NCBI GenBank assembly: GCA_021199855.1
Contig: JAJQHD010000025.1
Span: forward strand, 1 to 40,412
Source of the DNA: Oscillospiraceae bacterium
GTDB taxonomy: Bacteria > Bacillota > Clostridia > Oscillospirales > Ruminococcaceae
DNA length: 40,412 nt
Direction: 5' to 3'
The position numbers and the translations under genes were made by a program. Below the pieces are notes generated by a model that ran no database searches, was not told the origin of the DNA, and saw only the letters and a program-made list of their open reading frames with translations. Below, in pieces: positions 7,351 to 24,605 of this stretch. The stretch's first letter is position 1; the number at the start of each line of letters is the position of its first letter.

Positions 7351-8097
7351 TCAATACGGACTATCAAACTCCGCTTCTGCCTTCTTTACGGCGGCTTCGA
7401 GGGTCATTCCGGTGAAGTTCTGGGCGCCTAAGTATCTTCCCGACTTCTTGTCATCGACGAAGATGCCGACTACTGCGCCGGGAATGGCGGATTCGGGAGC
7501 ATTCGGGGCATGAGAACCGCCGAGGTCGGTTCTGCACCAGCCGGGATCTGTCAGGTTAATCATGACATCTGTGCCCTGAAGCTTGGAACCTAAGTCGATT
7601 GTAACTTTATCGAGTGCCGCTTTGCTGGCAGAATAGCCTGCCTGCTCAGGTTCGAGGCGGATTCCGCTTGTCGTATTCAGAATTCTTCCGAAGCCACGCT
7701 CAATCATCTTCGGCAGGAAGTGATAGCAAATCATAATCGGCGAAATCGTGTTAATCTGGAAGCTGTCGGTGAAGTCTGCAACAGGGGTCTTGTAGTAATC
7801 TACCCTGTAGGCAATCTGGAGCCCGGCGTTGTTTAAGATGAGGTCGACCTGAGTTCCTTTTTCATCGATTTCGTTGAGCATTGCCTCGACTTCTTCCGGC
7901 TTTGAGAGTTCTGCCGCAACGGCGTAAGCTTCCACACCGAAGGCTTTTACTTCTTCCAAAAGTCCCGCAGTGTGCTCAAGTTTACGGCTGTGTAAGATAA
8001 GATTACAGCCATGCTCGGCTAAGAAAAGAGCATCGAGCCTTCCGATTCCTCTGCTGGCACCGGTTATCAGTGCCCAGCGATTTTTTACGTCTACCAT
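7351..8097 (-). CDS. Short-chain dehydrogenase/reductase
   Basis: NAD(P)-dependent classical SDR of 248 residues with the whole signature: nucleotide-binding TGASRGIG at 12-19, NNAG at 89-92, and the catalytic set S144, Y155 (in YSASK) and K159, with N117 in QINTISP. Substrate cannot be inferred. The start was set at 8097 because the AAAGG ribosome site (8111-8107) touches the upstream in-frame ATG at 8106 but lies nine bases from this one; the resulting numbering also puts Tyr and Lys at the classical 155 and 159. The gene follows the phosphatase gene by 13 bases and ends in a repeat that acts as terminator. Confidence 0.92.
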   Translation of the reverse strand: MVDVKNRWALITGASRGIGRLDALFLAEHGCNLILHSRKLEHTAGLLEEVKAFGVEAYAVAAELSKPEEVEAMLNEIDEKGTQVDLILNNAGLQIAYRVDYYKTPVADFTDSFQINTISPIMICYHFLPKMIERGFGRILNTTSGIRLEPEQAGYSASKAALDKVTIDLGSKLQGTDVMINLTDPGWCRTDLGGSHAPNAPESAIPGAVVGIFVDDKKSGRYLGAQNFTGMTLEAAVKKAEAEFDSPY

Positions 8098-20363: not shown

Positions 20364-21764
20364 TTACGCCGTTATATCATCAATCCCGATTAAGAGAATC
20401 CGGCTGTCGTTTTTTGCTTCTTCTATCAGCGAATCGCTGAATCCACTCTTTGAAAAAAGTGCAAAATAGCAGTTATCTATGTCTTTTGAGAATACACCCG
20501 CACTCTCTTTCAGCTTGTTAAGAACAGCAGGAGTCATGATTTCATTCCGCCACTTGCACTCGCAGAAGATGTAATCTCTTCCGTCCTGCGCAATCAGGTC
20601 TATCTCGACCTGCGTGTGCGTCTTCTCACTCGAATGTCCCCACCATCTGCCGATTGATGTGAACATTATCGGAAGCTCGCACCGGGAGTTCTTTCTGAGA
20701 AGATACTCCATGCAAATCTTCTCGAAAACGATTCCCATATATTCGTTTAAGGAGGGTTCTATTCTTTTTTTGTAGAGAGCATCACTCGCTCCCGTCTCGA
20801 TGAGGGTACGGTTCGGGAAAACAAATCTGTACCAGAATCTGAACATGAAATCGGATATTCCATAAATCGTTTTTCGTGAACTTTCCTTCTCGCCAAAAGG
20901 AGTTTCTTTGTAGAGAATTCCCAAGTCGCAGAGGATACTGATGTATCTTAAACACTTCGCTGGCTCCTCGCCGATTTTCGTGGCAATTTCATTGCTCTTG
21001 GTGGCTCCACCAGCAATAGCTTCAATAACAGAGCTGTAAACGCCCGGCTCGACTACCTCCTGCCTCAAAAGCAAAAGTGGCTCTTCATAGAGATAGGCAG
21101 TCGTCCTTAAAAATTCGTGCCTGATGTTCTCCTCAAAGGTCTTCGACCGGTCTATATGTGAAAGATACAACGGAGTTCCGCCGAAGGCGCCATAAAGCAT
21201 CAGCTTCTCTTCATCCGTGAATCCGTCCATATATTCAAGGCTTGTCTTGTAATCAAACGTCTTCATGTGAAGCTGACCGGTTCGCCTGCCGAAAAGAGGG
21301 CTTTTTGAACCCAATACTTCCTTTTCCATGAATCCCATATAGCTTCCGCAAAGTACTAAAAACAGCTTTCCATGCTGAAGCCGATGGTCGATGAGGTGCT
21401 GAAGTTCCGAAAGAAGCGACATGTCCTTGCGGCAGAGATACGGGAATTCATCAAGAACCAGAACAAGTCGATTGCCTGCCTGTCTCTCGTCGATATATGT
21501 TATCGCATTCTCCCATGAAGAAAACGACTCCAGAGTCGTCTCGCCATAGTAGCTGAAAACTGCATCGGAGAATTTCTCGAGATTAAGTTTACGGTTGCTT
21601 TGCTCCGCCAAGTAGAATATCGACGGTTTATCCTTGCAAAATTCGTTTAAAAGAGTCGTTTTTCCGACTCGCCTGCGACCATAGAGGACAAACATCTGAA
21701 ATCTGTCCTCACGATACAGCTCATTGAGGCTTTCTAGCTCACTTTGCCTGCCTATAAACTCCAT
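20364..21764 (-). CDS. AAA-type ATPase with C-terminal DUF234 nuclease-like domain
   Basis: Archaeal-type P-loop ATPase of 466 residues. Walker A is GRRRVGKTT at 29-37, Walker [11 protein letters not shown] at 101-110, with the family start [14 protein letters not shown] winged-helix segment follows (about 245-300, [22 protein letters not shown]). The C-terminal DUF234 region (about 310-466) contains a PD-(D/E)XK-like set: E387, D389, and E402-C-K404 in FCECKW. Such proteins are common in anaerobes and their role is unresolved; a toxin-like or mobile-DNA-related function is often suspected. It is the first gene of a transcript with guaA, behind a consensus promoter with a palindrome after the -10. 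Confidence 0.88.
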
Positions 21765-21783: not shown

Positions 21784-21843
21784 ATTAAATCTGGATTTAA
21801 TAAATCTCGATTCAATTATACTATGAGATGACACACTTGTCAA
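21784..21843 (-). promoter_or_regulatory. Consensus promoter plus palindromic operator before the DUF234 ATPase and guaA
   Basis: On the minus strand TTGACA (21843-21838) overlaps the capA-type stop codon; a 17-base spacer and TATAAT (21820-21815) follow. Downstream lies a perfect palindrome ATTAAATC TG GATTTAAT (21784-21801), and a related half-copy TAAATCTCGATT (21801-21812) repeats TAAATCTGGATT (21786-21797). The position, between start of transcription and ribosome site, suits a repressor operator. Confidence 0.72.
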
Positions 21844-23135
21844 GAGACATTTTCGGAAATATCGGTTTCTTCCTCCTGAATAGTATCGTCCACAAAATAC
21901 ATCACCCCATCATCATCAAACTGGATGCCGTAATCAAGGCACAGCTCATTCATGAGGTCGATAATCTGGCGGTATCTTGAAGAATATGTATCTTCGCCCT
22001 CAGTCAAAAGATAGACTTTGTAATTTTTTATGAACAGTGGGTTTATCGTGAGGGACTTGAAGCCGTCCTTGTCGACGGTGATGTTGAAAATGCAGGTCAA
22101 GCCGTCGATGTCGTCGTCGACATGCCAGAATATGAGATTTCCGATGCTATAGAAAATCGGCTTACCGTTATAGAATTCTATCGGCTGAAGAGTGTGCGAG
22201 TGTCCGCCGATGACGATGTCTGCACCGTTGTCGATAAGGGCTTTGCCCAGGTCTTTCTGATAGGATGTGACGTCGAAGGTCTCTTCCGTGCCGCAGTGCA
22301 TGAAGACGATGAGGACGTCGACCTGGGTGTCGTACTCGGCGATCTTTGCCAGGAAGTCCTGCGTTCTCTCGTCATCCATACTATAGACCATGTTGATTCC
22401 GGCGTGATCCTCCGAAGCGGCATAGCTTGACGAGAGATAGACCTTGTTGCATCCCGCAAAGCCGATTGTGACGCCGTTGACCTCTTTTATGACCAGGCTT
22501 TCTGCGTCCTCCTCGTCATAGCCTGCTCCGAAATATTCGATTCCGTAGTTCGTGAGGTTCTCAAAAGTGTTGAGAAGTGCGTCGTAGCCGAAGTCTCTCG
22601 TGTGGTTGTTCGCAAGATTCACGATGTCGATTCCGGCGTTCACAAAGCCTTCGAGCATTTCTGGAGGAGTCCGGAAGCCATAGCCCTCCGGCTTTTCCGA
22701 CTCTCCGGTGTCGCTGACGCAGGTCTCAAGGTTGACAATCGCAATGTCTGCGGCGCTGAAGATGTCGCTGACCTCTTTCCACGGATAGTCGACGCCCCAG
22801 CTGTAGCAGGCGTCCGCAAACTCGGAATCAATCGACGTGTCCCCGCCGATTGCGATGACGACCTCGCCGCTCTCCTCCGGCTCTTCTTCCGGAACCGGCT
22901 CTGTGGTGGCTTCTGTCGTGACTGTTGTCGGAGCAGTTGTGGCTTCGGTTGTCACTTCGGTAGTTGCTTCTGTAACGGAAGTGACATCCGGCTCGTCCTC
23001 AGTCGTCAGAGTGACGTCAGGCGAAACGACCTCCAAACTGTCGTCCTGAGCCATTCTTATAACCACCCCGACAACGACGGCAACCATGAACACGGCGGTG
23101 AAAATAATAATTATAATGCGGTGGGTTTTGGACAT
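21840..23135 (-). CDS. CapA-family (poly-gamma-glutamate synthesis type) metallophosphatase-like protein
   Basis: Membrane-anchored extracellular protein of 431 residues: one N-terminal membrane segment (about 6-27), a threonine- and glutamate-rich linker (about 42-88) of the kind seen in clostridial surface proteins, and a CapA domain (about 91-365). Family motifs are present: IAIGGDTSID with D99, IVNLETCVSD, NLANNHTRDFG, and GGHSHTLQPIEFYNGKPIFY followed by SIGNLIF. CapA proteins belong to the calcineurin-like fold and take part in capsule polymer metabolism in some species; no other capsule gene is near. The gene has a strong promoter and a leader of about 165 bases that holds a candidate terminator/antiterminator system. 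Confidence 0.9.
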   Translation of the reverse strand: MSKTHRIIIIIFTAVFMVAVVVGVVIRMAQDDSLEVVSPDVTLTTEDEPDVTSVTEATTEVTTEATTAPTTVTTEATTEPVPEEEPEESGEVVIAIGGDTSIDSEFADACYSWGVDYPWKEVSDIFSAADIAIVNLETCVSDTGESEKPEGYGFRTPPEMLEGFVNAGIDIVNLANNHTRDFGYDALLNTFENLTNYGIEYFGAGYDEEDAESLVIKEVNGVTIGFAGCNKVYLSSSYAASEDHAGINMVYSMDDERTQDFLAKIAEYDTQVDVLIVFMHCGTEETFDVTSYQKDLGKALIDNGADIVIGGHSHTLQPIEFYNGKPIFYSIGNLIFWHVDDDIDGLTCIFNITVDKDGFKSLTINPLFIKNYKVYLLTEGEDTYSSRYRQIIDLMNELCLDYGIQFDDDGVMYFVDDTIQEEETDISENVS

Positions 23136-23172
23136 TTTAGCTCCTTTTATCGCAAATAATCAGTATATACTG

Positions 23173-23197
23173 AAAAAGGGGACGATTGCTCATCCCC
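23173..23197 (-). terminator. Attenuator-type terminator in the capA leader
   Basis: On the minus strand GGGGA (23197-23193) pairs with TCCCC (23182-23178), extended by two pairs past a mismatch, and is followed by TTTTT (23177-23173). It precedes the capA start by about 40 bases, so it must be read through for expression. Confidence 0.65.
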
Positions 23198-23300
23198 GGT
23201 TTTAGGTTCTCACTTAATGGCAGAGACTCGCCGCTTTTTTAGGTTCTCACTTGGTGGTGGAGAATCACCGCTTTAAGACCGGAGCAAAGCTCTTATCTTC
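23194..23300 (-). promoter_or_regulatory. Structured 5' leader of capA: two tandem hairpin/pseudoknot units in an enclosing stem
   Basis: Two 34-base units (23274-23241 and 23237-23204 in transcript order) differ at seven or so positions. Each starts AAAGCGG and ends AAGTGAGAACCT. In unit 1 GGTG pairs with CACC around ATTCTC; in unit 2 GGCG pairs with TGCC around AGTCTC, so the third pair covaries (T-A to C-G). The loop TCTC can pair with the downstream GAGA as an H-type pseudoknot in both. CTCCGGT (23284-23278) before the units can pair with ACCGGGG (23200-23194) after them, and the latter's GGGG is also the 5' arm of the terminator. I cannot match it to a known riboswitch. Confidence 0.6.
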
Positions 23301-23306
23301 AATTAC

Positions 23307-23335
23307 ATTATACACAATCTGCCGGCAGAAATCAA
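23307..23335 (-). promoter_or_regulatory. Sigma-A promoter of capA
   Basis: On the minus strand TTGATT (23335-23330), 17 bases, TATAAT (23312-23307). Transcription should begin near 23300, giving a leader of about 165 bases. Confidence 0.82.
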
Positions 23336-23404
23336 CCTTTTTTCAAAAATATTTTTGTTCATCTGTCCTCAAAATGCACCGTAATTTTCACGAATTGAAA
23401 ATCC

Positions 23405-23444: not shown

Positions 23445-24545
23445 TTACTTCTTGTCAGAGTTTGCAAGTCTCTGCTTTTCCTCTTCAAGGAGCTTGATGA
23501 GCTCGTCGATTCTTGAGGAGGTCGCCTGGGCGGGTTCGTCGGAATTTAAGGACTTTGCAACCTCGTCCAGCTTCATGGTTGTTTCTGCAACTGTCGGCTT
23601 GGGAGATGGCGCAGGCTCGGGAGTAGAGGCAATCGGGCTCCATGCGAATGACTCCTCTTTCGGCTCTTCCTTGACTGCAGGCTCTTCGGGCGCGGGCTCC
23701 TCTGCCTTGGAAGTACTGCTTCCGAACGAAAATTCAAGCTCTGTGGCACTGCTGTGGTCTTCAGGATTTGTGTACTTCGGAATGAAGTCTCCGAAATCGA
23801 AAAGCGGAGTCTCTTTTGGCTTTGACGGCTTCTCATCAGTAAAGCCAAAATCGAGAATGTCGTTGCCGGTGACCGGCTTTCTTTCCTTGACAGCGGGAGT
23901 CGGAGCAACAGGCTTTTCGGGAGAGTTCATTGTAAATGCAAGGGTATCCGCGGGACTCATATCCTCCTCAGCGGGCTCCTCCGCGGAAACTTTTCTCTTC
24001 CTTGAAGTGATGATGAGCATTATCACTTCATAGAGAATGAGAAGTGCGCACGGGACAATCACGATAACCAGCATTCCGACCTTTGATGATGCAAACGTGA
24101 TGACTCTTCCCATCAGCAGGTCGTAAGAAACGGCTCTTCCGATGATGTCATCGGCGTCAACCGTCCACTGCTGGTCGGCAGAGGTGCTGTCATACTTAAC
24201 AATATAGCTGGTTGTGACGAGACCCTCTTCAGAGGTTGTCGTCTGGGAGCCGACATAGCCGACAAGGGCAAGCTTGCCGTCGATGTTGCAGAGTATTACG
24301 TTGCCCTCACTTTCAGGGAGGGTTCCCTCCTCAACAAAGACAGCCGAGCCCTGAGGAATTCTCGGCTCCATGCCGCTTCCACTCATTATATATACCCGTT
24401 TTCCGAACACCATCGGCGCGGAATTGGAGTCCTTGAATATGCCATAAATAACGAATGTACTGACTATCGCCAGCGCAAGAATGACTACAATAACTATCCC
24501 GACAATCTGTAGTGGCTTGCGCTTCTTAGCGGTTTCCTGAAACAT
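23445..24545 (-). CDS. Signal peptidase I (SipW)-like membrane protein, probably inactive
   Basis: A 366-residue protein with a membrane segment (about 14-36), an S24/S26-like domain (about 45-150), a second membrane segment (about 160-182) and a long, acidic, proline-rich cytoplasmic tail (about 195-366) ending in a charged helix. The serine-box region reads MSGSGMEP instead of the usual SGSMEP, so a glycine separates the serine from Met-x-Pro, and I see no His or Lys at the place of the general base (ALVGYVGSQ where a THRI- or KRI-type motif is expected). It may therefore bind rather than cut. Start at 24545: AAAGG lies nine bases upstream, whereas the TTG at 24554 touches it. It has its own promoter. 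Confidence 0.75.
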   Translation of the reverse strand: MFQETAKKRKPLQIVGIVIVVILALAIVSTFVIYGIFKDSNSAPMVFGKRVYIMSGSGMEPRIPQGSAVFVEEGTLPESEGNVILCNIDGKLALVGYVGSQTTTSEEGLVTTSYIVKYDSTSADQQWTVDADDIIGRAVSYDLLMGRVITFASSKVGMLVIVIVPCALLILYEVIMLIITSRKRKVSAEEPAEEDMSPADTLAFTMNSPEKPVAPTPAVKERKPVTGNDILDFGFTDEKPSKPKETPLFDFGDFIPKYTNPEDHSSATELEFSFGSSTSKAEEPAPEEPAVKEEPKEESFAWSPIASTPEPAPSPKPTVAETTMKLDEVAKSLNSDEPAQATSSRIDELIKLLEEEKQRLANSDKK

Positions 24546-24605
24546 GATACCCAACCTTTCAACAAAATATGTGCAAATACGCTCTGATTTTCAGTTATCA
24601 AAGAT

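Follow-up and report, generated by a model that had tools for sequence, protein, structure and literature searches.

A probable orphan ToxI RNA-antitoxin gene upstream of a capA-like gene in an Oscillospiraceae bacterium

Results and Discussion

Organization of the capA leader

The stretch analyzed here, hereafter the window, comprises positions 1 to 40,412 of contig JAJQHD010000025.1 of an Oscillospiraceae bacterium (assembly GCA_021199855.1). The window genome is designated G000, and 31 genomes of the genus were compared; G-numbers denote genomes of this genus except G382, the genome of locus L151. The leader under study occupies positions 23335 to 23173 of the minus strand, between a signal-peptidase-like gene and a capA-like gene, and the features of the locus in the direction of transcription are as follows.

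23445..24554, minus strand: signal-peptidase-like gene (SipW match below its cut-off), the conserved upstream neighbor and synteny marker
23307..23335, minus strand: promoter-like site TTGATT (-35), 17 nt, TATAAT (-10), taken as the ToxI promoter; 10/12 consensus positions
23282..23292, minus strand: small 5' hairpin GAGC-TTT-GCTC close to the transcript start, from the sequence
23241..23274, minus strand: ToxI unit 1, H-type pseudoknot of 34 nt, 53.3 bits to RNA model R1 (the unit itself is in the model); stem 1, 23269-23266 with 23259-23256 (GGTG/CACC); stem 2, 23264-23260 with 23248-23244 (TTCTC/GAGAA)
23204..23237, minus strand: ToxI unit 2, H-type pseudoknot of 34 nt, 56.7 bits to R1 (the unit itself is in the model); stem 1, 23232-23229 with 23222-23219 (GGCG/TGCC); stem 2, 23226-23223 with 23211-23208 (TCTC/GAGA)
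23173..23197, minus strand: intrinsic terminator GGGGATGAGCAATCGTCCCC-TTTTT with an 8-bp stem, GCAA loop and T5, -13.1 kcal/mol
23136..23172, minus strand: spacer with the capA ribosome-binding site; toxN occupies this place in G009
21840..23135, minus strand: capA-like gene, PGA_cap, 431 aa (Pfam PF09587, 227 bits), downstream of the putative orphan ToxI

Both units open with AAAGCGG and close with AAGTGAGAACCT, and each consists of a 4-bp stem with a 6-nt loop, the end of which pairs with GAGA(A) 7 nt downstream; the third pair of stem 1 changes from T-A in unit 1 to C-G in unit 2. A preliminary description of the leader had recognized the strong promoter, the two 34-base units with identical flanks, the covarying hairpin pair, the pairing of the TCTC loops with downstream GAGA, and the position of this structured RNA between a promoter and an intrinsic terminator before capA, and all of these elements were confirmed. 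Since shuffled sequences yield 0.7 such promoter-like sites by chance, the weight of the promoter lies in its conservation in five genomes, being kept in G009, G011, G012 and G013 as well as in the window. The terminator has the same position and stem in these four genomes, and the 5' hairpin appears at the corresponding place in the predicted folds of G009, G011 and G012. Exact copies of AAGTGAGAACCT occur at four places in the window genome, two of them being the window units; the other two lack units and are taken as chance, one lying in a stretch without a 90-aa open reading frame and one inside a 466-aa frame that we take, by eye, to encode argininosuccinate lyase.

All 11 genomes of the close comparison, that of the window among them, have a syntenic capA orthologue. 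Window positions 23340-23380, which lie between ToxI and the signal-peptidase-like gene, hold the final codons of a gene that looks by eye like a leucine-rich-repeat gene; it is whole in G011, and only these codons are left in the window; G007 carries a different insert at the site before capA, and the gap before capA is thus a site of gene turnover. Directly downstream of capA (20364-21764, minus strand) lies a gene for a DUF234/ATPase_2 protein matching the PADLOC candidate defence family PDC-S27 (E 2.4e-57).

Related loci identify the repeats as ToxI

Type III ToxIN loci are described in the available text of PMC5086642 and PMC8860590 as a single promoter followed by pseudoknotted repeats of 34-36 nt, a Rho-independent terminator and the toxin gene. 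The window has the tandem repeats of about 34-36 nt (two units of 34 nt) behind a sigma-70 type promoter-like site matching 10/12 positions, and the Rho-independent terminator between the repeats and the next gene, but no ToxN gene directly downstream. Searching the 31 genus genomes with the leader DNA returned matches below E 1e-40 in five genomes, G000, G011, G009, G012 and G013; 15 further genomes gave only short matches (E 0.05 to 1), taken as chance. The search with RNA model R1 also lists a sixth genome, G008 (E 0.006), where the match falls on the ToxI of L095, a toxIN locus that is intact and belongs to another kind.

In G009, the same promoter, units and terminator stand at the same chromosomal place and are followed by a 171-aa ToxN open reading frame (PF13958, 168 bits; PADLOC AbiQ, 143 bits; PDB ToxN 4ato, E 7.6e-22) and then directly by capA. 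At this capA site toxN is intact in G009, carries an in-frame internal deletion in G012 and G013 that leaves profile positions 80-159 in a 133-aa open frame, and is absent from G000 and G011; correspondingly, the distance from the terminator stem to the capA ATG is 556 nt in G009, 337 nt in G012 and G013, and 42 nt in G000 and G011. A divergent third unit present in G009, G012 and G013 is missing from G000 and G011, and unit 1 of G011 differs at two positions. With PF13958, ToxN was detected in 9/31 genus genomes and not in that of the window. Because ToxN is absent downstream and was not found anywhere in the window genome, the element would be an orphan ToxI and not a complete ToxIN system.

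The association of the units with ToxN extends beyond the genus. A unit pattern requiring no toxin was run on a genome collection of 84,980 species, with exact matches to this one pattern only, and returned nine stretches, namely the loci of G009, G011, G012 and G013 and five new ones; at two of the latter, L126 and L127 in Lachnospiraceae metagenome-assembled genomes (MAGs), window-type units precede an intact ToxN. We conclude that the window element is very probably a chromosomal toxI, which encodes the RNA antitoxin in type III systems of the ToxIN/AbiQ family, and that it has become an orphan here: both toxN and the third repeat would have been lost. Judged by sequence, the element is a ToxI with promoter, units and terminator in place, with no toxN and with the usual capA promoter missing.

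Like ToxIN/AbiQ (with its ToxI and antiQ RNAs), the window combines a promoter, tandem 34-36 nt H-type pseudoknot repeats, a Rho-independent terminator and a downstream gene, and its kind of unit precedes ToxN in relatives; unlike these systems it has no toxN, only two units, and capA as the downstream gene. CptIN and TenpIN share the type III layout, but the toxin beside window-type ToxI matches the ToxN/AbiQ family (CptN and TenpN were not among the queries). Phage PhiTE provides a known case of orphan repeats, termed pseudo-ToxI (PMC3475682, available text), which likewise comprises ToxI-like repeats without a toxN of their own; that array is phage-borne, expanded and serves counter-defence, whereas the window array is chromosomal and occupies a position where a relative has toxIN. 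The element thus belongs to a known kind, ToxI, in an orphan state; its identity is well supported by sequence comparison. In a viral contig collection, a ToxN protein search gave 12 stretches fitting a pattern and no relatives, and the unit pattern gave no matches. CapA relatives in 32 phage records, all below 60% identity, led nowhere.

Pairing of the repeats

Two or more non-overlapping pseudoknots of the window geometry arose in 2/2000 dinucleotide-preserving shuffles, and at least one in 189/2000; for the leader as a whole the fold z-score is -2.3, with 4/200 shuffles folding equally well. The ToxI arrays that precede the other ToxN genes in the genus diverge strongly in sequence. In a set of 33 distinct units that includes units from them, 257 of 264 stem cells are paired, a count reached by 0/2000 shuffles (best shuffle 234), and slid-register controls pair 108, 161 and 141 of the 264 cells. 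The first unit of L091 had been dropped from this set beforehand, its register being different. Also left out were unit 3 of L126 (register again different), the other units of L090 and L093, the units of L098 and L099 (near-copies), unit 2 of L096, the partial first unit of L095/L096, units with a core identical to one already counted, and L151, which was found later. Stem 2 occurs among the units as TCTC/GAGA, TCCC/GGGA, TCGC/GCGA, CCGC/GCGG and TCAC/GTGA.

For the units of the window's own kind alone (A-type, 17 sequences), 97.1% of cells are paired, with 0/500 shuffles reaching this value and slid controls at or below 60%. Two pairs are changed on both sides, and two of the five measures do not exceed shuffles, the count of such pairs being reached by 350/500 and the pair-type count by 396/500; as the units are related, these figures are not to be read as probabilities. 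Each repeat can be folded as an H-type pseudoknot, a predicted structure whose pairing is supported by covariation among the related units.

The riboswitch reading

The preliminary description had interpreted the leader as a transcription-attenuation riboswitch that it could not match to a known class, in which a closing stem, CTCCGGT/ACCGGGG, competes with the terminator for a shared GGGG. A new ligand-binding riboswitch class would account for tandem pseudoknots followed by a terminator, but the same units precede intact toxN in three genomes (G009, L126 and L127), the units have a known class as ToxI antitoxin repeats, and no link to capA is seen outside this one site; such a class is therefore very improbable. 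Among the genus genomes, the leader occurs in 5/31 and has capA as the next gene in two, while capA matches of at least 56% identity occur in 27/31, so that the units are not a conserved companion of capA genes.

The proposed closing stem does exist and is complementary, but it lacks conservation, and its pair probability in the full leader is 1-3%, compared with 95-99% for the terminator. The sharing of GGGG with the terminator holds for the two cases that lack the third unit and toxN, namely the window and G011, and for neither G009 nor G012. The counterparts in the latter two, as isolated strands, reach -4.4 and -4.5 kcal/mol against -10.2 kcal/mol and use a different pairing without the GGGG. 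At L127 only a few bases separate a TATAAT element, identified by eye, from the start of the first unit, which leaves no leader for a closing stem. Conserved mutually exclusive stems, the hallmark of an attenuation riboswitch, are thus lacking in the comparison with G009 and G012. In minimum-energy predictions for the growing transcript, the closing stem is present only as long as the terminator still lacks its 3' arm. A conserved switch is not supported by these comparisons; an incidental effect of the closing stem on read-through could still occur in G000 and G011.

Rfam was uninformative for this question. With Rfam release 15 (4227 families), at gathering and permissive thresholds, one tRNA outside the leader exceeded its threshold in the window and all other matches were at chance level. 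The absence of a hit over threshold in the leader is no sign of a novel class, because Rfam misses known ToxI arrays as well: nothing exceeded threshold in the array of G009 or in those of five more ToxIN loci that are intact. The L094 array matches the istR antitoxin at 23.8 bits against a threshold of 45.

The capA promoter and read-through

In each of the six close genomes whose capA site lacks ToxI (G006, G007, G008, G010, G014 and G015), a promoter-like site TAGACA-17-TAAAAT ends 39-55 nt before the capA ATG; it is found in none of the five ToxI-bearing genomes. In G000 and G011 the 620 nt before capA contain a single site of that score, the ToxI promoter, 171 nt upstream, with the terminator in between. 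About 90% of transcripts are reported to stop at the toxIN terminator (PMC4147584, available text). With the usual capA promoter missing, the ToxI promoter, predicted to leak past its terminator, is the only recognizable promoter of capA in these two genomes. We propose that toxN was once present here in the window lineage, that transcription from the ToxI promoter, with a start estimated from the -10 box, yields a short RNA, about 128 nt long, that carries two antitoxin pseudoknots, and that this RNA would mostly end at the intrinsic terminator. A minority of read-through transcripts would now carry capA, since the promoter of close relatives is missing, and the two units would still be able to neutralize a cognate ToxN entering the cell. 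Transcription from the ToxI promoter and read-through into capA are here predicted from sequence. The case would indicate how a toxin-antitoxin promoter and a leaky terminator can come to stand before a neighboring gene.

This arrangement invites the interpretation that ToxI and its terminator have been co-opted as a cis-acting attenuator that sets or senses capA output, with release perhaps brought about by a foreign ToxN cutting the leader or by a nascent closing stem that holds back the terminator. Consistent with it, the terminator separates capA from its only recognizable promoter, and the closing stem occurs in the nascent-RNA folds of both G000 and G011; against it, the closing stem is unconserved and negligible at equilibrium, and the leader is present in only 5/31 genus genomes. 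We regard co-option as unlikely.

Recurrence of ToxI without toxN

The window and the unit searches together gave 11 A-type loci, of which three have an intact ToxN (G009, L126 and L127), three a broken one (G012, G013 and L130) and five none (G000, G011, L128, L132 and L151). These loci are not independent, as five represent the one capA site and L127 and L130 share a neighboring gene. One of the unit searches used stricter filters and covered 396 genomes, with 17 candidates scored per genome shown. A twelfth A-type array, L135, with intact ToxN, was found by toxin search; it lies on another contig of the genome of L132, a Limivicinus MAG in which an orphan five-unit array runs from about position 7410 downwards on the minus strand, and the array regions of L135 and L132 are 95% alike. 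The orphan array of L132 may thus add antitoxin in trans. L127, with intact toxN, and L130, with broken toxN and three near-identical ToxI units, come from related MAGs and are followed by the same gene. ToxN searches were negative for the genome of L128, which has a single unit, and for that of L151, where the search controls also gave no match.

At the six loci outside the genus, a hairpin is visible by eye behind the units in every case, and the scan calls it terminator-like in L127, L132 and L151 and not in L126, L128 or L130. A promoter-like site before the units matches the consensus at 12/12 positions in L132 and L151, 11/12 in L126 and 9/12 in L128; none was called there in L127 and L130. 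Retention is not confined to A-type units, in that L099 (G008:C24) has three units of a different ToxI kind and a hairpin before a toxN reduced to its C-terminal part. Judging from these sequences, loss of the toxin with retention of the antitoxin recurs, 8/11 A-type loci in this small sample being without an intact toxN.

According to the available text of PMC5086642 and PMC8860590, published type III surveys start from the toxin, so that orphan ToxI arrays would escape them. A toxin-independent unit search finds arrays that neither such surveys nor Rfam, for the arrays tested here, would flag. Among the matches listed in a literature search, no description of a chromosomal orphan ToxI was found by title or the start of the abstract; the search did not distinguish ToxIN from toxin, and a prior description is possible.

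Why the antitoxin is kept

If orphan arrays still neutralize ToxN, they would constitute host-encoded, RNA-based anti-addiction elements. The orphan ToxI might be selected as such a shield, neutralizing ToxN from plasmids, prophages or relatives or supplementing a paralogous ToxIN. Several observations point this way: ToxI is kept despite loss of toxN at the eight A-type loci (with five of the 11 being the capA site) and likewise at L099; the L132 genome carries its orphan array alongside an intact ToxIN with a closely similar array region; and the expanded pseudo-ToxI of a phage suppresses ToxN (PMC3475682, available text). Between G012 and G013, ToxI shows 0/202 differences compared with 8/337 from the terminator to capA including the toxN remnant (Fisher p 0.028), and elsewhere 75/1260 in capA and 39/300 just upstream. 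Between G000 and G011, the leader has 4/160 differences and capA 179/1263 (dS 0.68).

These contrasts are tempered by the extent of the conserved blocks. In G000/G011 low divergence extends from about -20 to about 57 nt inside capA, with nine differences in 280 columns, as a recent exchange would give, and the spacer, which is not antitoxin, is equally conserved (1/42); the G012/G013 block likewise reaches into the start of capA. Moreover, no ToxN was found in the window genome, and the arrays that accompany the two other ToxN of G011 belong to ToxI kinds other than this one. The divergence data from G012/G013 are suggestive of selection on the orphan ToxI and not proof of it, those from G000/G011 are explained as well by a recent exchange, and we consider the shield possible though doubtful.

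Alternatively, toxI may be a pure relic that survives only because capA needs its promoter, with functionless repeats. This explanation comes close to an even chance in our estimation and fits the absence of the usual capA promoter wherever ToxI is present, the loss of the third unit from the window and the drift of unit 1 in G011. It is harder to reconcile with unit 2, which is identical in G000, G011 and G009 and one base off in G012 and G013 while the surrounding 5' leader varies more, and with the persistence of orphan units at L128 and L132, where no same-strand open reading frame of at least 81 aa starts within 1.6 kb.

The number of repeats bears on whether the window array could still act. 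In the available text of PMC5086642, 1.8 repeats are essential for antiQ, and the two window units, exceeding this number, are counted in favor of an orphan antitoxin; the same source gives a need for 2.5 of the 5.5 repeats of ToxI_Pa, and a single pseudo-ToxI repeat gave no ToxN suppression in a co-expression assay (PMC3475682, available text), so that two units may not suffice.

The ToxI-bearing genomes do not cluster in the capA tree or in that of the upstream gene; most forks are poorly supported, and the well-supported ones force at least two changes. This weakens a single insertion with simple descent and suggests, as far as these trees go, an order of events that is not simple descent, fitting exchange of the locus between species or repeated loss. 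G000 and G011 could instead derive from an ancestor that never had toxN beside this copy.

More broadly, and with greater reserve than for the shield at this locus, we put forward the speculative proposal that type III antitoxin RNAs repeatedly outlive their toxins, either persisting under selection as independent RNA shields or serving as promoter-antitoxin-terminator cassettes for genes that have acquired them, such as capA and a RhuM-type defence gene. If true, bacteria would possess a ready protection against mobile elements that bear ToxN and against abortive infection. The RhuM-type case is L151 (1449-1645, G382), where a 12/12 consensus promoter, a two-unit array and a terminator-like hairpin stand directly before a gene that is RhuM-type by eye and matches the PADLOC candidate PDC-S05, a possible case of exchange of the gene downstream of a type III antitoxin. 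A general association of RhuM-type genes with ToxI was considered and rejected, since R1, run on 30 of 43 RhuM matches and L151, was positive for L151 only. The window genome has a RhuM-type gene of its own at G000:C1:26009-26935, with one in-frame stop in the match.
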